IMG/VR virus record: IMGVR_UViG_3300042402_000047
Location: 1-21,634 of that record
DNA: 21,634 bases
Strand: one strand, 5' to 3'
Origin: a virus
Part shown: in pieces, positions 1,349 through 13,487 of the stretch
Layout: every line of letters starts with the position of its first letter
How positions within the stretch are numbered: the stretch's first letter is position 1
The notes under the pieces: model-generated
What the model was told of the DNA's origin: nothing
Databases searched by the model: none
What the model saw: the letters and a program-made list of their open reading frames with translations, nothing else
Made by a program: the position numbers and the translations under genes

Positions 1349-4243
1349 CTAAATTGTATAATAACGAGTCTCTTCTCTGATACGATGTATGCGAGTCTCG
1401 CCTTTGATAACATACACTCTTGTTTCACCAGGAATAACATAAACAATGTTATCCAATCTTATTTCACGTGCTACTACCACAAACTGCATGGCTGACGCAA
1501 TGTTTGCCGCTCCACCAACACGACGACCAGCATTGGCAGTAAATGTGCTTGAGGCTGTTAGAGCAGAACTTAGACTAATGATTTTGCCAAGTGCCCCTGT
1601 TAACTGACTAATAGTAGTTATATTCGCACTAACATTACGTATTCTGCTGGCAACTGCTGTTAATGTCACTGCTGTGGCCAATAATGCTTGCAATCCTGAT
1701 ATTTCTGCAGCCACTGACAACTGTGATGCCACTGTGGCAAACGCCGCTGATGCTGTGGTAACTCTTTGAGCATCTGCTGTAATAGCTGTGCTACTGTTAA
1801 CAGCAGATGCAGTATCACGTGTTCTTGCAACTACGGCATTCACAGTGCTGACTGCAGATATGCTTACCACAGCACTAACTGTTTTGTTAATGTTAGCGGT
1901 AACTGATGCAGTGTTAAACAGTGTGGATTCTATCTTGCCAAGATTGTTGCCCGCAGCAATAAGCTGAGTATTAGATGCCACTGTAATTACAGTGCTTCTT
2001 AATCTCTTTGCATCTGTACTGATGGTAAATGCACTGCTGATAGTGGCAGAGACTATTTTTGCACTAACTCCAACAGCACTAACTGTGGCCTGTGTAGTTA
2101 AGGCAGAATCCAGTTGTTTGATTTTTAACGCGGTGGCTTGTAGACTGCTTGACGCAGAAACTGCACTCACAGCACTGCCAATCTTGTTCACTAACGCATT
2201 GATTACAAATTCACTGAGGTCATCTACCAACAATCCACGAATACGTATGGCCGCCGTTAATTGACTGCCCAATGCGGTAATATCTGCAGTAAATGGTCTT
2301 GTTCTATTTGCAGTGGCTGTTAACTCACAGCTGGCTGCAAGGTTTGATACAGCACTGGCTGTTTTGACCACAGTGGTGCTGATACTACTTACAGAAGTGA
2401 CACTGGCGGCAGCAATGCGTAATTTATCTACATTGACAACAATGGTGCTGTTGGCAAACGCCACAAGGTCAGCGCCTTCAATGTGACTGATAGTGGCCTG
2501 TAATGAACTGCTGACAACCAATGCACTAGATGCACGTACTGGACCAGTAAGTTGTGCGGAGGCTGTAAATTGAGATAACAGACTGGCTTGACCAACGTGT
2601 TGCACATTGATGTCATCAACACCGTTGCTTTCCCAATGATATAAAAATTGTGTGGTTAAAGGATCATTAACTCGTGCAGTAGTAGGCACTGAAATTGTAG
2701 TAGAACTAGGATTATGTCCATATGTAGTGCCATAAGACAAACTAGATTCATCTAAAAACAAATTATCACGGGCAATTTGTGTGATTACAGGTGTTTCACT
2801 AAAACCATAAGAATCCCATCCAGCTGTGGCAGTAAATATGCCAACTCTGGCCCCATCAACATAGAAACTTAAAGCACTTGAGTTTTTAACCACAGTTAAA
2901 TGATGCCAAGCACCTACAGACACCGCAGAACTGGTTACTCCGTATAACGTAGTTCTTACACCGCTGGTATGATTATACACCTGCATACGCACTGTGCGAT
3001 TACTGTTAACTCTAAGTTCAAGAAATAAACTGCCTGCTGTATCTAAAATACTGGCTTGAGTAACTGTTGATGCAGTAGGATAGATATAACTTTCATAGAC
3101 CCAATCTTGTCCAGGTGGGGGTGGAAACAACAACACCTGAGCAGGAGATAAAGAAAGAGCACTACCTTGCAGACTGGCTGTGCCATATTTGGCTGTAGAA
3201 GTAAATGGTCCAGAATTACCTAATGTGCGAGGTCTTTGACTGCCTGCATATCTGCTAACTAACATAATACTAAATGCGGTCAGTGCAGAAGCTGCCAATG
3301 TGGTTCTGCCAACATTGGCAGTTATCACAGCAGTGCTCTGCATTTGTGCTGAGAACACACCTGAGAATGATGCTGAACAGGTCAAGGCTGCAACGCCAGT
3401 GCCAGTTAGATGAGCATCACGGATTTTTCTTACTGTGGCTGAGATAGAACACACCGCAGACAACGCAGCCTGTAAGGATCTTATTTTGATTGCTGTGACT
3501 GAGAGACTAGAGCTTGTGCTTTGATCAGATTCTAGATTTCTCACACGTTGAGCCACAGTGCTTATGTCTGCTTGAGCAGATACTGAACTAGATAGTTGTT
3601 TAACTACACCTGTTGCTGCCGTAAAAGAAAACGCAGCCTGCGTCTGTAAATTGACATCACGGCTGCGTAGTCCTGCAATTATGGCAGAGAATATAGCGTC
3701 AACATCTGCATCGCCATTTCGTTTGACCACAAAGTCCGTGGCAACATTGAACACACTGCTCAATGCAATATTAGTATCACGGATTCTTCTTACTTGAACA
3801 CTGATAGCCGCATTGCCAAATGCAAACAAGTTGATGTCAGTGATTAATCTAGCCTGAGCAGTTTGTTGGAACACAGAAGCAAAAGCCGCTGTGGCACTTC
3901 TTGTTCTTGTGGCTTGACAAGAAACTGTGACCTTTGCTGATCTAGGTTCTATGTAGCCATTGACAAAATATCCAGGCTCAAAATAGTCTTGCAGTGAAGC
4001 GTTGCCATTGATAATTTTACTTGCTGTGGCAGTAAATGTGGTCTTTATAGAATTGTTGTGGTAGTATGTACCATCAATATAGTTGCCTAGGTAATATTCA
4101 CCTGTGACTACACGTCCACCCCTAATTTTATCAATATCACATTCTAAGAATGCTCTTGAAACATTAGGTTCAGTGTAGTCCCCATTGAAATACCCTGGTT
4201 CAAAGTAATTCTGGGGACCGCTTGAAAAGTCTTTAATGGCCAC
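1349..4243 (-). CDS. Large fibre protein with 20-residue repeats and an internal LamG domain
   Basis: A 964-residue structural protein. Residues 13-26 and 87-100 carry two copies of a YFEPGYF-type motif. From about 71 to 330, and again from about 555 to 925, the chain is built of repeats close to 20 residues, each with an alternating strand ending in a K/R-I-R-like turn (ISATVRKIRD, LSVTAIKIRS, LTAVASRIRN). Between them, about 345-540, is a LamG/concanavalin-like fold with WHHLTVVKNSSALSFYVDG. The last 40 residues contain four ETR or EIR units (GETRVYVIKGETRIHRI). The repeats suggest a beta-rich shaft and the LamG domain a sugar-binding head, giving a receptor-binding fibre. The start is GTG with AAGGAAT upstream; no ATG fits. 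Composition is dominated by Ala, Ser, Thr and Val. Carbohydrate binding is inferred. Confidence 0.85.
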   Translation of the reverse strand: MAIKDFSSGPQNYFEPGYFNGDYTEPNVSRAFLECDIDKIRGGRVVTGEYYLGNYIDGTYYHNNSIKTTFTATASKIINGNASLQDYFEPGYFVNGYIEPRSAKVTVSCQATRTRSATAAFASVFQQTAQARLITDINLFAFGNAAISVQVRRIRDTNIALSSVFNVATDFVVKRNGDADVDAIFSAIIAGLRSRDVNLQTQAAFSFTAATGVVKQLSSSVSAQADISTVAQRVRNLESDQSTSSSLSVTAIKIRSLQAALSAVCSISATVRKIRDAHLTGTGVAALTCSASFSGVFSAQMQSTAVITANVGRTTLAASALTAFSIMLVSRYAGSQRPRTLGNSGPFTSTAKYGTASLQGSALSLSPAQVLLFPPPPGQDWVYESYIYPTASTVTQASILDTAGSLFLELRVNSNRTVRMQVYNHTSGVRTTLYGVTSSAVSVGAWHHLTVVKNSSALSFYVDGARVGIFTATAGWDSYGFSETPVITQIARDNLFLDESSLSYGTTYGHNPSSTTISVPTTARVNDPLTTQFLYHWESNGVDDINVQHVGQASLLSQFTASAQLTGPVRASSALVVSSSLQATISHIEGADLVAFANSTIVVNVDKLRIAAASVTSVSSISTTVVKTASAVSNLAASCELTATANRTRPFTADITALGSQLTAAIRIRGLLVDDLSEFVINALVNKIGSAVSAVSASSSLQATALKIKQLDSALTTQATVSAVGVSAKIVSATISSAFTISTDAKRLRSTVITVASNTQLIAAGNNLGKIESTLFNTASVTANINKTVSAVVSISAVSTVNAVVARTRDTASAVNSSTAITADAQRVTTASAAFATVASQLSVAAEISGLQALLATAVTLTAVASRIRNVSANITTISQLTGALGKIISLSSALTASSTFTANAGRRVGGAANIASAMQFVVVAREIRLDNIVYVIPGETRVYVIKGETRIHRIREETRYYTI

Positions 4244-4253
4244 AGTTTATTCC

Positions 4254-4967
4254 TTAGGCTGTATCATCTAAAAATACTGTAGAATTATTAGTTCCGTCTG
4301 CGTGTATTAACAATTTGGTGTTAGCATCGTTGACAAATGCGGCAGCAGGTGGCGTAAAATTAGCGGTGTATCGTGCGATATTTGAAATACGAAGTTCATC
4401 AAGGTATCCATTTAGACTTAAAGTGTTGTCTTCACGATTACCTATATACAAAGCACTCTGACTGCTTAGAGTTGCCCCAAGTGTAGCAGAAGTCCCACCT
4501 GAAACTCCGTTGACATATATTGTTAATGTATTTGAATTTCTTACCAATGCAATGTGATTCCAGGTGCCTGTTGTGATATATTGTGAACTTGTAATTTGCG
4601 GATCAGTTGGATCAGCAAGTGTGTTGTTAAGATATACGTGAGGGAAGATGTTGGCACCAGTTCTTCTTATTTCAATGCGACAACCATCATCGTGATAGAA
4701 CACTGCGTGTCTGTCACCTGCGGCAATTGCAGTTGTGTTTACAAAAAATTCATATGTAAAAGCCCCTGTGCCAAAATTAAAAGGATTACCAGTATTTGAA
4801 ACATCCAGTCTATCACCAGCACCATCAAACAATGCTGATGCACTACCAAACTTTGATTGTGCTGTAGATATCTTGGCATTGCCAACTGCAGTAATGGTGA
4901 TAGCGGTTCTAGGTGGGGCCGCTACTGCATAGGTAGCACCAACCATTGATGATAGAAAGCCACTCAT
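4254..4967 (-). CDS. LamG/concanavalin A-like lectin-fold virion protein
   Basis: A 237-residue protein that is almost entirely one LamG-type (LamG_3) jelly-roll domain: FDGAGDRLDV near residue 49, FTYEFFV, WNHIALVRNSNTLTIYVNG in the middle, YIGNRED, then YLDELRISNIARYTANFTPP and KLLIHADGTN at the end. Such domains bind glycans or mediate oligomer contacts. The frame is open 19 codons further upstream, but ATG at 4967 is preferred because it overlaps the stop of the preceding fibre gene as TAATG and makes the protein begin MSGFLSSMVG. It lies between two fibre genes and is probably a tail-fibre tip or decoration. A second LamG domain lies in the next gene. Confidence 0.85.
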   Translation of the reverse strand: MSGFLSSMVGATYAVAAPPRTAITITAVGNAKISTAQSKFGSASALFDGAGDRLDVSNTGNPFNFGTGAFTYEFFVNTTAIAAGDRHAVFYHDDGCRIEIRRTGANIFPHVYLNNTLADPTDPQITSSQYITTGTWNHIALVRNSNTLTIYVNGVSGGTSATLGATLSSQSALYIGNREDNTLSLNGYLDELRISNIARYTANFTPPAAAFVNDANTKLLIHADGTNNSTVFLDDTA

Positions 4968-6898
4968 TATGATACATTCCCAGTTATGATACAGCGTGTT
5001 CCACTTAGAAACAGGATGTTGCAAACACCTCTAGTGGCCAAACTCACTGTGGCCTTGTCAGTGTCAGTGCCGCCAATGTAAGCATCTGAAATAGTGCAGG
5101 TAATGGTAATGGCTGCGGTGTGATTGTTTACAACCACAACCACATCACCTTCTGCAAATGTAGAGTTAGGTATGGTGATTGAACCACCACTTGTCACTTG
5201 CACATACTTGCCCACATCACCTGTGGTCAATGAATATGAACTTGTTTTAGTGCCTACTGCTGGTAAATCACGATAACCAATTGGGTTTGTGCCATCTACT
5301 GTGCAGTTTGTCAGTGTGCCTGAACTTGGTGTGCCTAATGCACCACCTGATGTTAATGGAGCAGTTCCGTTTGATGCGGCTGTGATACGACCTTGTGCAT
5401 CTACTGTGATGCTGGCATAGGTATAGGCAGCAGGTGTAACTGCTGTATCAGCAATGGCTATTGCACCAGTTGATGAATTGTAAGAAATACCTGTTGAACC
5501 ACTAAGTGCTGAACGAGCATTTGAATCTGCATATTGCGTGATAGTTGTGGCAATAGAACCACTGGTAATTGTGATACCAGTGCCTGCTGTAAATGCCGCA
5601 CGGTAGTCAGTGGTTCCTGGACCTGTGTAGGTAATAACACCAGTTGATGAATTGTAACTTGCTGAACCATCGCCACCTGCATCTGTTACTGATATGGCTG
5701 CTCTAGCACTTGCGTCATTGTATTGTGTAATAGTAGAACTAATGGCACCAGTTGATGAATTATATGATATACCAGTTGATGCACTTAAGGCACCGCGGGC
5801 TCTTGCGTCAGTGTAGTAAAGATTGGTTGCACCTTCTGTAACTGCATCTGTGCTTCCTGGACTTGCTGAAATTTCAACATAGGCTGAACCACTCCAACGA
5901 TAGATCTTGTTGTTGTCTAGTGTCACATAGATCTTTGAGGTTTCACCTGTGGCTGGTAATGCAGCCTGGTTAGCGGCTTCAACAACATCATCAACATAAC
6001 TTGGCAATTGTGCTGAAGCAACCTTACCGCCTGCGTCTAGGCCAGCGTAGCCATTGGCTTGATTTTTTGCAGAAGTTACTTCAAGGCCACTGAAACTTGG
6101 GCCTGTATAGGTAAACACACCTGTGGTATTGTTGTAGGCAAAACTTCCTTCGCCACCTGCGTCTGTAGCACTGACAGCACCTCTTGCGGCTGCGTCAGTG
6201 TATTGAGTGATTGTAGTGGCTACTACACCATCTGTTATGGTAATACCAGTGCCACCACTAAAGTGAGCACGAGCCTCAGCTGCTGAAGGTCCTGTATAGG
6301 TAATAACACCTGTTGATGAATTATAACCTAATGAACCATCACCGCCTGCGTCTGTAACACTGACAGCACCTCTTGCATTAGTGTCTGTATATTGTGTAAT
6401 TGTTGAACTAATTGCACCAGTTGTTGAATTGTATGAAATACCTGTTGATCCACTTAGGTGAGCACGAACTTCTGTGGCACTTGGACCTGTGTAGGTAATA
6501 ACACCTGTTGATGAATTATAACCTAATGAACCATCACCGCCTGCATCAGTTACTGATATTGATGTGCGGGCATCGCTTTGTGTAAAATCAGCACTGCCGT
6601 TTGAAGCGGCTGTGATACGACCTTGTGCATCAACAGTAACACTGGCTTTGGTATATGAACCTGCTGTGACTGCGGTGTTGTCTAGATTAAGTGTGACTGT
6701 GTCAGTGGTCATCACTGAGCTTAGTCCTGTGCCGCCTGCAACGGTTAAGGTGTCATTGAGATCCAAGGCTTGTGTGGTGCCTGAATCACCTGCCACTGAT
6801 ATTGTGGCATTTTGTAGGTTTGTGAAATTGGCGTCACCTTCGCCAAAGGTTAATTCACTGCCCTTTCCTATTCTTGTGACGATTATTGGCTTAGCCAT
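4967..6898 (-). CDS. Repeat-containing tail fibre protein
   Basis: A 643-residue fibre. The N-terminus (1-110) is probably the attachment part. Residues about 112-270 and 370-480 are repeated units built on SVTDAGGDGSLGYNSSTG, VITYTGPS and STITQYTD(A/T)NARGAVS. Residues 279-345 form a distinct unit (GYAGLDAGGKVASAQLPSYVDD...KIYRWSGSAYVEIS) common in phage fibres. The C-terminal about 95 residues (VGKYVQVTSGGSITIP...ATRGVCNILFLSG...ITGNVS) resemble the trimeric fibre tips of aquatic T4-like phages. VTVDAQGRITAASNG occurs near 88 and ITVDAQGRITAASNG near 498. AAGGAGAG precedes the ATG. It is the first gene after a strong terminator, so it may depend on read-through or an unrecognised promoter. 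Host-receptor binding is inferred. Confidence 0.88.
   Translation of the reverse strand: MAKPIIVTRIGKGSELTFGEGDANFTNLQNATISVAGDSGTTQALDLNDTLTVAGGTGLSSVMTTDTVTLNLDNTAVTAGSYTKASVTVDAQGRITAASNGSADFTQSDARTSISVTDAGGDGSLGYNSSTGVITYTGPSATEVRAHLSGSTGISYNSTTGAISSTITQYTDTNARGAVSVTDAGGDGSLGYNSSTGVITYTGPSAAEARAHFSGGTGITITDGVVATTITQYTDAAARGAVSATDAGGEGSFAYNNTTGVFTYTGPSFSGLEVTSAKNQANGYAGLDAGGKVASAQLPSYVDDVVEAANQAALPATGETSKIYVTLDNNKIYRWSGSAYVEISASPGSTDAVTEGATNLYYTDARARGALSASTGISYNSSTGAISSTITQYNDASARAAISVTDAGGDGSASYNSSTGVITYTGPGTTDYRAAFTAGTGITITSGSIATTITQYADSNARSALSGSTGISYNSSTGAIAIADTAVTPAAYTYASITVDAQGRITAASNGTAPLTSGGALGTPSSGTLTNCTVDGTNPIGYRDLPAVGTKTSSYSLTTGDVGKYVQVTSGGSITIPNSTFAEGDVVVVVNNHTAAITITCTISDAYIGGTDTDKATVSLATRGVCNILFLSGTRCIITGNVS
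6297..6349 (-). repeat. 53-base direct repeat in the fibre gene, copy 2
   Basis: This segment is identical over 53 bases to 6492-6544. The copies are 195 bases (65 codons) apart and in frame. They encode the GSLGYNSSTGVIT part of the fibre repeat. Identity at the third codon positions shows a recent duplication or gene conversion. Confidence 0.9.
6492..6544 (-). repeat. 53-base direct repeat in the fibre gene, copy 1
   Basis: Identical to 6297-6349 over 53 bases, with a mismatch just outside each end. A further diverged copy is visible near 5630-5680. Recombination between the two identical copies would remove or add exactly 65 codons without a frameshift. Confidence 0.9.
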
Positions 6899-6958: not shown

Positions 6959-7384
6959 TTAGGCTAAAGATACTGTTAAGTTACCAGAACTTACTTGGAA
7001 AGTGTCGCCAGATTCTATCAGCTTGGAAGTTGTAACTGCACCGTAGAACAGGACATTGCCAGCACCTGCTGTGCCACCGTCCATGATAGCGATGTGTGTG
7101 ACTGTGCCCCAGGTTGCAGTAGCGGCATCAAATGTCACTGTTGCGTTGGTTGCACTTGAACCACTTGAAGCGGCTGCGAATGTCACTGCCTTACGAGCAT
7201 ATGCTGTGCCTGATGTGCCTATTTCATCAGTCAATGTGCCTGCTTCTAGGTTAGCTGCGGCGTTGGTGCTGGTGTTTGTGAACAGAGCCAAGTACAGAGT
7301 AGATGGTGCTGTGTATGGTGCTGTGGAATAACGTAGAACGTGATCTAATACTTTGTTTTCTAAAAAATTTGATGCTGCGGACAT
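6959..7384 (-). CDS. Small virion protein, Gp80-like tail-fibre family
   Basis: A 141-residue beta-rich protein beginning MSAASNFLENKVLDHVLR, then STLYLALFTNTST, YARKAVTFAAASSGSSATNA, ATWGTVTHIAIMDGG and ending FQVSSGNLTVSLA. This order (ENxLLDHVLR / YLALFT / YARxAVTFAA / WGTVTHxxI / GDTFxxxxGxLTVxL) recurs in small phage structural proteins annotated as Gp80 or putative tail-fibre proteins. The start has AAAGGAG about 9 bases upstream. The gene forms its own unit, with a TATAAATA box and a structured leader in front and a strong terminator behind. This suggests a protein needed in many copies or at a set time. Its place in the virion is not certain; a decoration protein is an alternative. 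Confidence 0.75.
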   Translation of the reverse strand: MSAASNFLENKVLDHVLRYSTAPYTAPSTLYLALFTNTSTNAAANLEAGTLTDEIGTSGTAYARKAVTFAAASSGSSATNATVTFDAATATWGTVTHIAIMDGGTAGAGNVLFYGAVTTSKLIESGDTFQVSSGNLTVSLA

Positions 7385-7502: not shown

Positions 7503-9392
7503 TTAATAATATCCAAATATGGCTGCTCTGGTTCCTGTGATGGCAGAGTTTGGAGCCACGGTGTTAAAGGAAGTGATTGGTTCTAACAGTGTTCCGCCTA
7601 GTGTTGCTACTGTGCTTATTGATCTAGTTGATGTCACAGTGATAGAACTTGGATTGCCTTGTGAAACGCTTAGTGTCAACGGCACATTGGCAGTAGGCTC
7701 GCCTGCAAAAGGCACAGGCATAAATGCACTCTGAAGCACACTTATGGATTTCAATTGTCCTGTGGTTCCATCATATGTGCCGCTCCAAACCACAGGAGTT
7801 GAAATATATTGTCTAACCACATCTGGCGGTGGTGGCGGTGGAACTTCTGGGGCTGTTTCATTGTCTAATACTGTAATACTGGTTGATACCGTGGTGCCAG
7901 TTGCACAAGGGTTGGCACTTGAAGTACCAAATGTTATGGTCAGGGCCTGTGTGCCTTGATAAACTCCATCATCTGTGGTTGAGATAGTTAAGGTTGCTGT
8001 GCCACTGCTGGTAGTAACTGTGCCAGTTAGTGCAGGACTTGATACCTTGCCTGTGGCACTTCCTGATATCACATAAGGAATAACAGCATTGAGAGCTGCA
8101 CCAGTTGCGGTCAATGTCACTGTTGAACTACCGCCTTCTGTGATGCTGGCATTATTTCTTGTTGCTGAAACAAGTCCTGAGTCTGAACTATCATAAATTT
8201 GTACCGTGGTAGATAAGCCGCCTATGGTCACTGTGGCAGTTTCAATACCTGTGCCGCTGCCTTCTGCTGTGGCATCATTGGTAGCAGTAAATGTCAAAGC
8301 GCCCACACCATTTGTGACCAATACATTACCAGTTAGTGGTATGTTGATATCACCTGCGGATATACCAGTTATGGTGTATGCATAATTTAGTGGGGGTATG
8401 TCAAACAAACAACTTGAACAAGTGTGCCCAACTGTGATGGTTTTTGAGGCACCTTCACAGAGCGTGCCACCTGCGCTTATGGTTTGAAGTGCTGGTTTTT
8501 TGGCACCAGCTAATATTTTGTCTAATTCTTCAGCAGAAGCGTCAGCGGGTTTGGTCTGTCTTGAATAAATGGGATTGCCATTGGCATCAGTGCCTATTTG
8601 ATTACGTCCAAACAATTTGTTCAGCAAGTTATTGGCAATGCCTAATCCCACATTGGCAGCAATCATTCTACCAATGCTGCCAGCCACACCAGCATCATCT
8701 AACTCTTTGATTACATCATTCTGCTGTCGTAGTAAGATGCCTGTTTTTTTGCTTCTTTCTTTGAACACCAAACCAGCGGTACTGTAGACATCTGCGCTGT
8801 ATTCCATGCCAGTGATGTTGATGCCAATGACATCATCATCTACTTCTTCTATTTTGGTAACACGAAATACCTTTGAAGTAAATCCATACATGGCAGCAGT
8901 GACATCAATGAGATCTCCTGCCTTTAGGCCAAGACTGGTATAGTCCGTGGTAAATTGAATTATTTTGTTTAGACGTTTTTGTTTAAGTTCTATGCCAGCA
9001 ATGTATTGAGCCTGTACAGGATCATTGATCAAGTCACTTTGCATCTGTAAAGGATTTTCAATTTCGTTAGGCAGTCTGTCGCCTGATGGTATCACAACTT
9101 CTACAAAATCAGTTTGATCTCTTAGACTTTTGTGTGGAAATTCAAAAGTAGCACTGTTGTATAGTTCGTTGACACCAGTCTCACTAACTGTGATGTTACC
9201 AATGATGTTTGAATCACTGTAACTTTTGATACTAGAACCAGTGGTGTTTATGACCACTGACCATTTGCCTTGGCTGATGTCAAAGGTCAAGAATGCACCG
9301 CAGGCATTGCAGATATCATTGAGATTCTGCAACACAGTTTTATCTGTGCTGATCACACCGTTGATTTTTAAAGGAGCATAAAGTGTTGGCAT
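7503..9392 (-). CDS. Tail-tip hub protein, C-terminal part of a J-like protein, with Calx-beta domain
   Basis: A 629-residue protein. Residues 8-200 match the middle of lambda-J-like hub proteins: INGVISTDKTVLQNLNDICN, GKWSVVINTTG, LYNSATFEFPHK, a segment with IELKQKRLNKIIQFTTDYT, then GLKAGDLIDVT and MEYSADVYS. A hydrophobic GMIA-rich stretch follows (about 237-262). From 300 there are Ig-like strands with Cys 312, 325 and 328, then a probable Calx-beta domain (about 405-512, ASITEGGSSTVTLTATG...LTISTTDDGVYQG), a run of six prolines (518-523) and a beta tail. The usual J N-terminal part is missing; it appears to be the gene at 12526-11744. AGGAT lies about 9 bases before the ATG. The protein probably closes the tail tip and contacts the host or the fibres. 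Confidence 0.82.
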   Translation of the reverse strand: MPTLYAPLKINGVISTDKTVLQNLNDICNACGAFLTFDISQGKWSVVINTTGSSIKSYSDSNIIGNITVSETGVNELYNSATFEFPHKSLRDQTDFVEVVIPSGDRLPNEIENPLQMQSDLINDPVQAQYIAGIELKQKRLNKIIQFTTDYTSLGLKAGDLIDVTAAMYGFTSKVFRVTKIEEVDDDVIGINITGMEYSADVYSTAGLVFKERSKKTGILLRQQNDVIKELDDAGVAGSIGRMIAANVGLGIANNLLNKLFGRNQIGTDANGNPIYSRQTKPADASAEELDKILAGAKKPALQTISAGGTLCEGASKTITVGHTCSSCLFDIPPLNYAYTITGISAGDINIPLTGNVLVTNGVGALTFTATNDATAEGSGTGIETATVTIGGLSTTVQIYDSSDSGLVSATRNNASITEGGSSTVTLTATGAALNAVIPYVISGSATGKVSSPALTGTVTTSSGTATLTISTTDDGVYQGTQALTITFGTSSANPCATGTTVSTSITVLDNETAPEVPPPPPPDVVRQYISTPVVWSGTYDGTTGQLKSISVLQSAFMPVPFAGEPTANVPLTLSVSQGNPSSITVTSTRSISTVATLGGTLLEPITSFNTVAPNSAITGTRAAIFGYY

Positions 9393-9404
9393 ATTTTTTT
9401 AATC

Positions 9405-11747
9405 CTATCTTTGGTAAGCTACAATAACAATTCTGCCTTGGCTGCCAGCACCGCCTGCTCTGCCGCCGCCGCCGCCTGCTCCGTAGACGTTGGCATTACC
9501 TGGACTACCGTCTTGACCATTTAAGTCACCCACAATACCGCCTCCACCATAACCATTTTGTGCTGATCTTGAATTGCCATTGCCTTGACCCCCACGCCCT
9601 AGATTGAACAGTTGTATTGCCCCACCTCCTCCACTGTAGGGCACACTAAACGTGTGAGACACTGCTGCACCACCTACACCATTAGGACTTCCTAGACCTA
9701 CACCACCTGCGCCACCTCCGCCGCCTCCGCGTGATGAGCCACCAGTGCCTGTAAATGAGCCTGCGCCAGCATTGCCATTACCACTGGTTCCTCCCACCTG
9801 CGGCATATTCCCAGTGGAAGTATTGTAAATTGAAGTTGCTCCCAAACCACCAGCAGCAGATAATCCTGCAAAAGTTGTTGCTGTGCCATTTTTTCCTGAA
9901 TAAACTTCAGTCTTTTGTGAATTAGGAACCTCGTCATATGGTATAAATGTGCCACCTGCTCCACCTGAGCCAACTACAGCAGTATAAGTTTGATTAATCC
10001 ATTGTTGATTAACAGCAGTGGTCACTGCGGCGCCGCCGCCGCCTGCACCATTAAAGGCTCCGCCGCCACCACCACCACCTACTAACACAATTTCATACTG
10101 TGAATACAACAACAACTCAGGAGTTGGTGTATATGTCTGACTGGCAAGAATATTAATAAGCACTGTGGCAAATGAATTAGCTGCGCCTATCAATGCCACG
10201 GTCTGAGAAACTTGTTGCACACCATTCTTGAACTGTGTGTAAGTGAATGTGGTGTTGCCACTGAAATTCACAGTGGGGTAAAATTTCACACTGCTGAATC
10301 TATCATTGATAAATGTTTTTGTGCCAGTGATACTTAATGGATTTGATCCTCCACTGTCAACGACTGGGCTGAGACTGGTTGAGTAACTGAAGATGCCGTT
10401 GTTGCAACTAAACACCACTGTGTATGAGGGATTCGTAGCATCATTGTCGCTGATTTGAGGTGTAGTGGTTGCAAAAATAGAGTTGCTGGCATTGGCCAAG
10501 AAATTGCGATTCACATTCATATTAACAATTTCAGTGTCAGTGCTACCTATGCTCACAACCTGCACCTTGGTGGCCGTGTCTGCTCTTGGCGTACTGCAGG
10601 CATATGACAGAGTAAAATTGCTGGCAAAATCCACACCTGGAGTTATTGTGATCAATGACAGTCTTGCATTGATTTCTGAGCGTGACCCAGTGATGGTTAA
10701 CACCTTTGTGGAATTGTTAAATGACACTGTGCCACCTGAACCTGTGACTGCGATAGTGCTGATAGCACTTGTGGTGCTGGGTGTGATGGTATAACCATAT
10801 GTGCCAGTGCCATCAAAACCCACGTCATTGATAACAGGTGCGCCTGTGAGCAAAAACGCAGTGTCTTCATTGTAGTATATCTGAACCTGTGTGACTGCGG
10901 CTAATATGGCCAAACCTGCTGATATCAAAGTTTGACTGCGCGAATCAGTGACTCCATTTAGATTGTTAGTAACACTATAGGTCAAGGCAAAATCTACTGC
11001 CACAGCGTTTGCATCAATTCTTAGACCATTTATGCGACTGTTGACCTGTGTTCTGGTTCCTGAGATAGTAATAACTTTGGTAGATGCATTCACTGAGAAT
11101 GATCCACCTGTGCCAGTGGTTGTAAATGTGTTTATGCTGAGTATAGTATTTGGAGTTATAGTCACTGTGAAAATAACGCCTGGATAGGCAGCATCAAGAT
11201 TACCTAATAGTGGTGCACCTGTGATAGCACTAACATCACTGAGAGCATAGACAAACTGTGTAGGCGCTGTAAGCAACAACACGGCATTCACAGTGACTGC
11301 TGTGGTCCACGAACGACTCTGTCCACCGTCTAAGGCGCTGACATATGATATAGTTGAAGTATAGGTCCATGCACCTACAAAATCATCTGCAAAATCAATT
11401 GTAGGTGATTTGATAAGATCCCAAGTGGCTTTGTCTGTAAAGCCTGTAATCACATAGACTCTTGGCGCAGTTTCAGTCACAGTGACACCAGCTGGCACAC
11501 TGGCATATGACAAACTGGCTGAGGCCAATCCAGACAGATCAATTTGATAACTTGGTGTGCTGTTGGCGGCATTTAATATTTCTATAATATCAATGCCTAT
11601 GCTGCCTGTGACTGTGAAACCTCTGTCCACGCTCTGTGTTTGATTTACTGCATTTGGTCTGTCAAATAAGACATTGGCCAATCTAACATCAGTAAAAGGC
11701 AATGAAAATCCGTTGACAAATCCATTTAATTCTGTTAGGCTGTTCAT
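9405..11747 (-). CDS. Adhesin-like tail protein: cadherin-like repeats and glycine-rich domain
   Basis: A 780-residue protein with two parts. Residues about 50-522 hold four repeats of roughly 110 residues. Each ends in a pattern like VLTITGSRSEINARLSLITI, a DF motif and SYACS, as in cadherin-like repeats of large adhesins (copies near 97, 225, 348 and 470). From 551 the chain turns strongly glycine-rich (LVGGGGGGGAFNGAGGGG...) and ends GGAGSQGRIVIVAYQR, as in glycine-rich adhesin tips of phage fibres that pack polyglycine II helices. Receptor binding is likely. The ATG overlaps the stop of the upstream hub gene as ATGA, and the downstream hub gene follows by 12 bases, so this gene separates the two halves of a J-like protein. 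Confidence 0.8.
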   Translation of the reverse strand: MNSLTELNGFVNGFSLPFTDVRLANVLFDRPNAVNQTQSVDRGFTVTGSIGIDIIEILNAANSTPSYQIDLSGLASASLSYASVPAGVTVTETAPRVYVITGFTDKATWDLIKSPTIDFADDFVGAWTYTSTISYVSALDGGQSRSWTTAVTVNAVLLLTAPTQFVYALSDVSAITGAPLLGNLDAAYPGVIFTVTITPNTILSINTFTTTGTGGSFSVNASTKVITISGTRTQVNSRINGLRIDANAVAVDFALTYSVTNNLNGVTDSRSQTLISAGLAILAAVTQVQIYYNEDTAFLLTGAPVINDVGFDGTGTYGYTITPSTTSAISTIAVTGSGGTVSFNNSTKVLTITGSRSEINARLSLITITPGVDFASNFTLSYACSTPRADTATKVQVVSIGSTDTEIVNMNVNRNFLANASNSIFATTTPQISDNDATNPSYTVVFSCNNGIFSYSTSLSPVVDSGGSNPLSITGTKTFINDRFSSVKFYPTVNFSGNTTFTYTQFKNGVQQVSQTVALIGAANSFATVLINILASQTYTPTPELLLYSQYEIVLVGGGGGGGAFNGAGGGGAAVTTAVNQQWINQTYTAVVGSGGAGGTFIPYDEVPNSQKTEVYSGKNGTATTFAGLSAAGGLGATSIYNTSTGNMPQVGGTSGNGNAGAGSFTGTGGSSRGGGGGGAGGVGLGSPNGVGGAAVSHTFSVPYSGGGGAIQLFNLGRGGQGNGNSRSAQNGYGGGGIVGDLNGQDGSPGNANVYGAGGGGGRAGGAGSQGRIVIVAYQR

Positions 11748-12526
11748 GCGCTGTAAATCTCCTGATCTGTTAGTCCCGCACCATATCGTGTGGATTTCAT
11801 GTAGTCATTTAGCACATCACCAGGTAGAGTCATAGAATTAGTTAGTTTAAATTCTAATTCACCAAGACTGGTGATGTTTTTTTCTTTGTTGTATTCAACA
11901 ACCACAATGGCAAACACTGTGCTGGTCATGGTGTGATTGGCTGTCCATCCAGGGAACACACTATAAGCATATCCCAAAGAACCATTAGCATATCCTACAG
12001 GCACTACAGGTGAACTACCGCCATTGTTGAAACAGTAGATGCGTATGAGTCCATTCATAGTGTTGTCTGTGTTGCCGTCCTCATCAGTGGTGCTTAGAAC
12101 TGTGAGCCCGTCATTGTTGAATTGAACTTCGTTGCTGTTCAAATAGATCTTGTCAAATGTAATCACACTGTCTGCGCTGTCTGAAAGTTTGATGCCTGTT
12201 TTCTCACAGATGGTTATGCAGTAGGTCATGGTCTTGTTGTCATTGCTCATCACAGCATCTGTGATAATGCCTTTGAGATAGCCAGTGCCATAGACCACAG
12301 GTATGCTGTGATTGGTGTCTGGACTCATCTGTTCACGAACTGATTTATCTGGTTGTGAAGTCTGCGATGCCTGAGGCAAACTACTTTTCTTGTTAACACT
12401 GTTGCTGACTTGATTAACAAGAAATCCTAATGCCGCAGTCTTGGCTATGCTGGATGCAATATTTGAACTGCTGACGCTGTTGTATATCTTGGAACCAAAG
12501 TCAACCACATCATCTAAGAAACTCAT
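11744..12526 (-). CDS. Tail-tip hub protein, N-terminal part of a J-like protein
   Basis: A 260-residue protein. After a weakly hydrophobic, low-complexity N-terminus (to about 65) come features of the start of lambda-J-like hub proteins: SIPVVYGTGYLKGIITDAV (about 74-92), the TYCITICEKTG strand, and near the end a segment with ITSLGELEFKLTNS, DVLNDYMKSTRYGAGLTDQEI. In J-like proteins the RYGxGL motif leads directly into the part that here begins the gene at 9392, but this frame stops eight residues after GAGL. The ATGA overlaps at both ends show coupled translation with its neighbours. It probably sits at the distal tail ring. An I/K-type assembly role is a less likely alternative. Confidence 0.75.
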   Translation of the reverse strand: MSFLDDVVDFGSKIYNSVSSSNIASSIAKTAALGFLVNQVSNSVNKKSSLPQASQTSQPDKSVREQMSPDTNHSIPVVYGTGYLKGIITDAVMSNDNKTMTYCITICEKTGIKLSDSADSVITFDKIYLNSNEVQFNNDGLTVLSTTDEDGNTDNTMNGLIRIYCFNNGGSSPVVPVGYANGSLGYAYSVFPGWTANHTMTSTVFAIVVVEYNKEKNITSLGELEFKLTNSMTLPGDVLNDYMKSTRYGAGLTDQEIYSA

Positions 12527-13107
12527 AGTTTGGCTCCAAAGTCAAAGAAACTGTTTTCTAGTGCGGACACGCGATCCATGCTGACATCTGTAGGAAAGAA
12601 CTTCTTGTGGCTTTCACTGTTGGTTTTTCTACTGGCTATTTTGTTTTCTAACACATCAACATTGCTGGCACAGCTAAACACCACTGTGTTGGAACTGATT
12701 CTGTTGTCAATGTCGTAGTCTTCTTCATAGCCAATGTTGTTGATGTAACCACTGAATCTTATGATAGGATTGCCAGCAAGACTGCTTAAGAAAGTGTCGT
12801 TAGTGGCATTGTATAAACCTCTAAGTATGACCACAGGACTGCCTTTGATATTTGCAGCCAGTATGTCAGTGATACTTGAGTTTGGCACACCACTGATGCT
12901 GATGGTGAGGTCCTGACCACTGCTGCGGATTTCACTGTTGCTGCCGCTGACTGCTAATAGTTTACCAAGTCCAGTGTAGGTGCTGCCGTCAATGGTTGTG
13001 GCTGTAATCCTATCACTGAACAATAATACTGTGCTGTCTGATAAAGTAATCTTTACAAACAGGTGTGTCTGTATGGCATAGGTGCTGTTGAGATCAAGCA
13101 CTGCCAT
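12523..13107 (-). CDS. Distal tail / baseplate-hub protein, DUF2163-like
   Basis: A 194-residue protein beginning MAVLDLNSTYAIQTHLFVKI. It is beta-rich, with LFSDRITATTIDGSTYTGLG, SGQDLTISISGVPNSS and VVILRGLYN, then a segment ending in VVFSCASNVDVLENKIASR. It closes with HKKFFPTDVSMDRVSALEN, a pattern typical of phage tail proteins between the tape measure and the hub. The frame extends 22 codons upstream, but ATG at 13107 is chosen because it overlaps the stop of the previous gene as TAATG and has AGAGGTG upstream. It ends in an ATGA overlap with the hub gene. The exact ring or hub role is inferred from order. Confidence 0.75.
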   Translation of the reverse strand: MAVLDLNSTYAIQTHLFVKITLSDSTVLLFSDRITATTIDGSTYTGLGKLLAVSGSNSEIRSSGQDLTISISGVPNSSITDILAANIKGSPVVILRGLYNATNDTFLSSLAGNPIIRFSGYINNIGYEEDYDIDNRISSNTVVFSCASNVDVLENKIASRKTNSESHKKFFPTDVSMDRVSALENSFFDFGAKL

Positions 13108-13487
13108 TACAACACCTCTTGAAACACAAAAGCACCGCTCCAACTGACTTGGTTGCGAGCAAAAATAACCCACTCAGGAAATTGTATGCAGCGAACGGTA
13201 TAACTTTCATCACTGGCTGGTGCTACATTACCATAATACCAAGGAAACTTGGCATATGGTATGGAAATTGTTGCAGTGGTTATTCTATCTAGTGCTTCTG
13301 CTGCCACGATATCAGTACGTATGTCACTCCAGTAGATACCATCTGGAACTTTGATTTCAAATCGTTTAGGCTGTGTGCCACGACTCACAGTTCGCACAAT
13401 GCCGTCACGTGCTGTGGTGCTGGCAACCATGCGTTTGCGATTTATGCTTAGACTTTCTGATCTGTTTACGATCCATTGAAAACTCAT
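13107..13487 (-). CDS. Minor tail protein after the tape measure
   Basis: A 126-residue protein (MSFQWIVNRSESLSINRKRM...). It combines beta strands with VSRGTQPKRFEIKVPDGI, IDRITTATISIP-like strands, SIPYAKFPWYYG and a C-terminal ARNQVSWSGAFVFQEVL. Small proteins of this size and position, directly after the tape measure, are usually distal-tail or minor tail proteins that start the tail-tip assembly (lambda M/L-like position). AAGGAG lies eight bases upstream of the ATG. The next gene starts in its stop codon (TAATG). The function is assigned mainly by synteny. Confidence 0.7.
   Translation of the reverse strand: MSFQWIVNRSESLSINRKRMVASTTARDGIVRTVSRGTQPKRFEIKVPDGIYWSDIRTDIVAAEALDRITTATISIPYAKFPWYYGNVAPASDESYTVRCIQFPEWVIFARNQVSWSGAFVFQEVL

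Follow-up and report, generated by a model that had tools for sequence, protein, structure and literature searches.

The locus considered here raises the question of why a gene resembling that of a phage tail-tip hub is cut into separate reading frames with an adhesin-like gene between them, and whether the pieces still belong to one hub. The window, by which we mean the whole stretch of DNA analysed, is an IMG/VR virus contig of 21,634 bases in which chains A, B and C are encoded by consecutive tail genes, all located on the minus strand. Chain A (11744..12526, 260 amino acids) corresponds to the N-terminal part of a hub of the gpJ/pb3 type and ends 14 residues after the start of its RYGAGL motif, while chain C (7503..9392, 629 amino acids) harbours the motifs NGVISTD and GKW within its first 45 residues. 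The fibre- or adhesin-like chain B (9405..11747, 780 amino acids), homologues of which occur in 75 distinct loci, lies between the hub halves. These three reading frames and the position of the motifs near the end of A and at the start of C had been put forward in a preliminary description of this DNA, and inspection of the sequence and its translations confirms them, together with an ATGA in which the stop codon of A overlaps the start codon of B (11744..11747) and a gap of 12 nucleotides between B and C. A GGAG resembling a ribosome binding site is present upstream of the B start within the coding sequence of A (11759..11762), and an AGGA which may serve the same purpose for C overlaps the B stop codon (9403..9406). 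As the same gene order is seen in many independent metagenomes, it does not result from an assembly error.

Upstream of A the window encodes a tape-measure protein (Pfam Tape_meas_lam_C), a protein of 126 amino acids and, directly adjacent to A, a protein of 216 amino acids (12523..13173, minus strand), a gene order typical of siphophage tails. The 216-residue protein, assigned to PHROG 2048 ("tail protein"), shares 28% identity with gp17 of phage P19250A (5e-23) and also resembles a pelagiphage protein, "minor tail protein L" of HTVC202P (28%, 1e-11); it may be a hub partner of the HDI/gpL type. The capsid protein of the window is nearest to those of the HTVC111P group of pelagiphages (about 49%).

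Residues 52-257 of A match, in a tblastn comparison, the "host specificity protein J" of Methylophilaceae phage P19250A (P19250A_0019, gp19) with an E value of 5e-27, and residues 8-203 of C match the same protein with an E value of 9e-17 as well as proteins of pelagiphages and tail tip proteins of T5-like phages. Since the regions matched by A and C follow each other within this single gene, they are not chance matches. The stretch of P19250A gp19 which extends from RYGAAI to the NG domain is RYGAAIPVENIDTTSLTALNTYSNQTITYTLYSGGTSTMKRFEFNGTLDTAQ, and the corresponding junctions of the window are RYGAGLTDQEIYSA at the end of A, MNSLTELNGFVNGFSLPFTD at the start of B and MPTLYAPLKINGVISTDK at the start of C. 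Furthermore, a profile built from single-chain relatives aligns to residues 361-718 of T5 pb3 (E value of 1.7e-23) without interruption across both cuts, which map to pb3 positions of about 480-490 and about 512-520, positions beyond RYGAGL and deep within the gpJ-like chain. As judged from these homologies, A and C are consecutive parts of one gpJ/pb3-type hub.

The fold of this hub was assessed on the single-chain relative L052 rather than on the separate chains of the window. Its AlphaFold2 model (pLDDT 82, pTM 0.81) retrieves T5 pb3 (5e-24, TM score of 0.67 normalised by query) and lambda gpJ (1e-20) in a Foldseek search, besides the hubs of DT57C, T1, Chi, JBD30 and RcGTA. Projected onto this model, the cut between A and B falls just before a helix formed by residues 258-266, and the cut between B and C coincides with the tip of a hairpin comprising residues 270-282, which in L052, a closely related single chain, is present in its uncut form (TSFDDLNTYADTGVDYDDQGTGTQTLADRYQINGLLDTA). 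The supposition that the hub is broken near a simple domain boundary does thus not hold: it is interrupted before one helix and once more at the tip of the β-hairpin which follows. The adhesin leaves the hub at this hairpin tip, and C opens with the second hairpin strand, which together with the NGVISTD...GKW region and the remaining hub core makes up its first 210 residues (8763..9392, minus strand, supported by tblastn and the C profile).

The segment which is missing between A and C is found at the beginning of B, whose first approximately 20 residues (MNSLTELNGFVNGFSLPFTD; 11688..11747, minus strand) match it (P19250A: TTSLTALNTYSNQTITYT) and would provide the helix and the first hairpin strand. 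B is hence not purely an insert, as its N-terminus looks, on sequence grounds, like the middle segment of the hub. When a profile was derived from the middle segment of single-chain hubs only, its best match within the B protein was located at the N-terminus (residues 1-45) in 57 out of 60 whole B proteins, and 30 of these 57 gave an E value below 0.01. The B protein of the window itself scores weakly against this profile (0.2 bits), so that its case rests on its close relatives. Throughout 63 complete loci encoding A, B and C, mean pairwise identity amounts to 45.5% in A, 51.8% in the hub part of C and 45.8% in B residues 1-20, but to merely 31.4% in B residues 21-200 and 28.4% beyond residue 200. 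Accordingly, the first 20 residues of B evolve at the rate of the hub, the remainder of the protein like an adhesin. Within the same segment, leucine and asparagine of an LN pair are each conserved in 62 of 63 diverse B proteins, as is the arginine following a TD (62/63). Of the earlier proposal of a hub made up of two chains, the assignment of A and C to one hub is borne out by single-chain homologues spanning both, while the number of pieces has to be revised: the hub is encoded in three of them, namely A, the 20-residue segment which opens B and the first approximately 210 residues of C.

We consider it rather probable that these genes encode a multi-chain version of the trimeric siphophage hub to which B, an exchangeable receptor-binding cassette, is anchored via its hub-derived N-terminus. 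A different, in our view unlikely, explanation would be that A and C rebuild the hub by themselves, B being held in place via its stalk or a further protein and its hub-like N-terminus representing a structurally idle leftover of the insertion. The proposed anchor comprises only about 20 residues, is variable in places, is poorly predicted on its own and, in the window, matches the profile weakly, all of which would suit such a leftover. An idle segment, however, would hardly be expected to retain its pattern at hub-like rates in 63 diverse B proteins whose following 180 residues are much more variable, and if the B segment were left aside, the hub would lack a helix and a strand which are present in every relative with a single chain and in every relative cut without an insert.

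To place this arrangement among its relatives, we collected 262 loci from scans of viral contigs and from phage records, which upon removal of identical hub sequences left 174 loci with both hub parts. They fall into three states: 85 encode the hub as a single chain, 75 resemble the window (A/B/C), and 14 are cut at the same position with no insert (henceforth A/C). The cut falls at one and the same hub residue in all 89 split loci, and B, where present, always begins there. A profile of A finds its counterpart in every split and single-chain relative. The distance between A and C ranges from 1.4 to 3.6 kb in A/B/C loci and amounts to about 90 nucleotides between the matches in A/C loci, with no locus between 95 and 1422 nucleotides. 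In A/C loci, the second gene reads from the helix through the intact hairpin into the NG domain (L062: MKSLKELNTFSAQSLAYDDQGTGAQTLADRYQINGLLDTAQ). The preliminary description had named as its counter-case homologues of A which never continue into the NGVISTD domain; in the 85 single-chain loci, and likewise in P19250A, the A homologue does continue into the NGV(I)STD domain. Equally, the empty site it had predicted is found in two forms, as intact single-chain hubs such as L052 and as the 14 A/C loci. The existence of the latter indicates that the split alone is tolerated, and B is consequently not needed to explain it. A profile of the B body (residues 19-240) detects its counterpart in 56 of 59 split loci but in none of the single-chain hubs or neighbouring reading frames of the loci from the first two search rounds. 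No relative was found in scans of genome contigs, which therefore yield no host assignment from prophages. In a related single-chain hub, that of Kolga EXVC016S (L002, 5869-10038), about 300 extra residues precede a YGCG motif and mark another insertion point.

The location of B within an otherwise conserved gene and the existence of empty sites could also be taken to indicate a mobile or self-splicing element, such as an intein, an intron or a homing cassette, by which the hub would be restored at the RNA or protein level. We regard this as highly improbable, given that B has its own start and stop codon, fibre domains and a glycine-rich C-terminus, that a Pfam search reveals no splicing or endonuclease domain in it, that C possesses its own ATG and a Shine-Dalgarno-like motif in 73 of 73 A/B/C loci, and that A/C loci keep the cut without any insert.

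The junctions between the genes bear on how the chains are synthesised. Among 87 relatives, ATGA is the commonest junction, present in 46 of 73 loci at the A/B border and in 7 of 14 A/C loci; GTGA, TAATG and a GTG or ATG at -8 are further junctions among these relatives. In nearly all loci B starts at position -4 (ATGA/GTGA), -1 (TAATG) or -8 relative to the end of A. A Shine-Dalgarno-like motif is situated upstream of the B start in 82 of the 87. As each gene has a start codon and an RBS-like motif of its own, separate synthesis of the pieces, by what would be coupled initiation, is most likely. One might instead suspect a ribosomal frameshift at the A/B overlap giving rise to an A-B fusion, in which the N-terminal hub part and the fibre form one chain and C alone is separate, since 75 of the 87 loci have B in frame -1 with respect to A. 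We deem this very improbable: in the remaining 12 loci B lies in the +1 frame, a slippery heptamer is found in the 48 nucleotides before the A stop codon in none of the 75 loci with a -1 frame, Shine-Dalgarno-like motifs precede B at the frequency given above, and ATGA and TAATG are simply common coupled junctions.

A split and an insert within a gene are typical hallmarks of decay, and A or C might accordingly be the decaying remnant of a broken hub gene in a phage that is defective or uses another hub. This, too, is hardly credible in view of 75 distinct loci with intact frames. Compared with relatives at 69-71% identity, for which synonymous change is near saturation, pN amounts to 0.21-0.23 in A and to 0.14-0.18 in the hub part of C. 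Both hub parts are under strong purifying selection. A second hub reading frame is absent from every locus, and each of 17 split contigs of 21-33 kb contains exactly one hub match. The arrangement is conserved and does not represent a decaying gene, in agreement with the earlier suggestion that both parts are kept functional, as they are subject to strong selection and constitute the only hub in their contigs. The programmed -1 frameshift, the self-splicing element and the pseudogene were set aside as readings of the locus on account of the evidence from heptamers, frames, Pfam, selection and hub counts.

Beyond its N-terminal segment, B consists of repeated β-rich domains which may form a stalk (residues ~60-530; 10158..11570, minus strand), homologous among B proteins and modelled by AlphaFold2 with low to moderate confidence, and of a glycine-rich tip (residues 549-778; 9414..10103, minus strand) which matches Gly_rich_2 (PF21722) with 33.7 bits at a cut-off of 24.3. 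The AlphaFold2 model of B alone is poor (pLDDT 53, pTM 0.32), and the low prediction confidence of residues 1-59 alone is compatible with a segment that needs its partner in order to fold, though it may just as well be without meaning. The tips of B proteins are diverse, with Gly_rich_2, laminin-G-like, FG-GAP-like and Lcl_C-like domains recognised by Pfam, and the PHROG matches of B (phrog_2295, 863 and 9239) carry no usable function. Comparison of the window with the related locus L007 reveals 98% identity in A, 95% in B residues 1-20 and 97% in the hub part of C, yet only 36% in B residues 531-780, from which it follows that the tip was replaced while the hub remained almost the same. Domain type and this rapid exchange of the tip are the two indications that B may bind a host receptor. 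The C-terminal extension of C (residues 211-629; 7503..8762, minus strand) is, by comparison of lengths, shorter than in single-chain relatives: the median number of residues after the C hub domain is 392 in A/B/C, 700 in single-chain and 760 in A/C loci. The extension is thus about 300 residues shorter in the presence of B (Mann-Whitney p = 6e-17 versus single-chain and 4e-5 versus A/C loci). This length pattern fits, without proving it, a receptor-binding role which moves between the C-terminal extension and B.

Following the reading of a multi-chain hub with B anchored to it, A, the N-terminal helix and strand of B, and C would fold into one subunit of a hub which closes the tail tube. B would be held in the tail tip by its hub piece, with the repeated domains and the tip projecting from a surface hairpin as a receptor-binding fibre. 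As only the N-terminus of B would be committed to the hub, the outer end could be exchanged without touching the latter. Relatives which lack B probably bind their receptor through the C-terminal extension of the hub chain, which is longer in them. We infer from genomic evidence that the chains assemble in trans, that each virion bears three fibres and that B binds a receptor. Opening of the tube is accompanied by a rotation of the hdII-hdIII block in T5 and lambda (PMC10038345, PMC11101478). More tentatively, and with a chance which we would put slightly below even, the helix and strand of B may be obligatory in each hub subunit, so that exactly three fibres per virion would be locked at a moving domain, receptor binding could pull on the gate, and tips would be exchanged between the halves of the hub gene while the hub itself stays the same.

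The baseplate hub protein pb3 of T5 (PDB 7ZHJ) and its DT57C homologue share the hub fold, and profile homology is contiguous across both cuts; pb3, however, is one chain which has its fibre domains at the C-terminus and no gene inside. Gp19 of P19250A (KX815270), the closest cultured relative, contains the homologues of A, the middle segment and C in this order but as a single chain of 1100 amino acids which lacks the insert. Multi-gene hubs are known from lambda (gpL/gpI/gpJ) and RcGTA (gp13-gp15), where the cut lies in the HDII-insertion and other genes are situated between the pieces (PMC10721106, PMC13243795). In these systems a hub subunit is composed of several polypeptides with other genes between the pieces, and the same would hold for the present phages, whose hub subunit is encoded by more than one gene. 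Yet, the cut in lambda and RcGTA separates HDI (gpL) from gpJ, whereas in the phages studied here the gpJ-like chain is itself cut again, and what lies between its pieces is, unlike in lambda and RcGTA, a fibre gene which carries a hub segment. The present hub would hence work like a multi-gene hub but does not correspond to the lambda arrangement, since it is not cut in the HDII-insertion N-terminal to gpJ. Gp25 of Alishewanella phage LSH1 has been described as a siphoviral hub with glycine-rich antireceptor ("brush") domains (PMC13243795), but these are fused to the C-terminus of a single hub chain and do not reside on a separate protein encoded in the middle of the hub. The C-terminal domain of the window's B passes the family cut-off of the Gly_rich_2 tail-fibre tips; this likeness is, however, limited to the tip of one subset, as other B proteins end in different or unrecognised domains. 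A literature search for hubs split around a fibre gene or for gene fission in tail hubs yielded only the lambda and RcGTA cases. What is new is where the hub is cut, that this cut recurs both with an insert and without one, and that a fibre gene opens with the missing hub segment.

In trees calculated from A and C, split and unsplit hubs are intermixed inside one well-supported clade. A tree of 124 rows requires seven changes among the three states, and for a careful tree of 61 rows the AU test rejects the grouping of all split hubs into one clade (p = 0.006). With a single-chain outgroup, the A/B/C form looks early, and the A/C form, like many of the single chains, looks derived. These trees are compatible both with a gain that was later lost and with repeated gains, and recombination within the hub would produce the appearance of either.

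The conserved siphophage hub thus tolerates an interruption of its core at one constant position, which a large uncultivated phage group, represented by the 89 distinct split loci, uses to carry a gene likely to be involved in host recognition. Should the anchor work as proposed, it would provide exchangeable fibres with a natural plug-in site and offer a route to how receptor binding opens the tail. A tblastn search of B against 50,697 phage records gave no match, and in these records those few hub-part relatives whose hub gene was examined encode a single chain, for which reason annotation pipelines probably list the pieces as unrelated hypothetical proteins.

Several further features of the neighbourhood are worth recording. 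Near the siphophage-type hub, the window encodes on the minus strand homologues of two podophage GP4 proteins, the fibre protein gp80 (6959-7384; PF23140, 1.5e-33) and the fibre-tail adaptor gp77 (1013-1339; PF23148, 3.4e-20). Two more proteins resembling laminin-G/ConA-type lectins are encoded downstream (1349-4243 and 4254-5024, minus strand), and the phage may thus carry several adhesins besides B. A protein of 643 amino acids (4967-6898, minus strand) contains repeated DAGGDGSLGYNSSTGVITYTGPS units, and its relatives measure 333-542 amino acids, so that the number of repeats may vary between closely related phages. In one sub-lineage, but not in the window, a reading frame of 103 amino acids (L013:541-852, also in L012, L014 and L017; phrog_16521 of unknown function, 7e-21) separates the tape-measure gene from the tail gene that follows. 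Ultimately, the N-terminus of the tape-measure protein differs between L005/L006 (872 amino acids, MAGDLRYSITTDV) and the window (860 amino acids, MAINYDINVNTNQ), while the tail genes on either side hardly differ, a pattern suggestive of recombination within the tape-measure gene.
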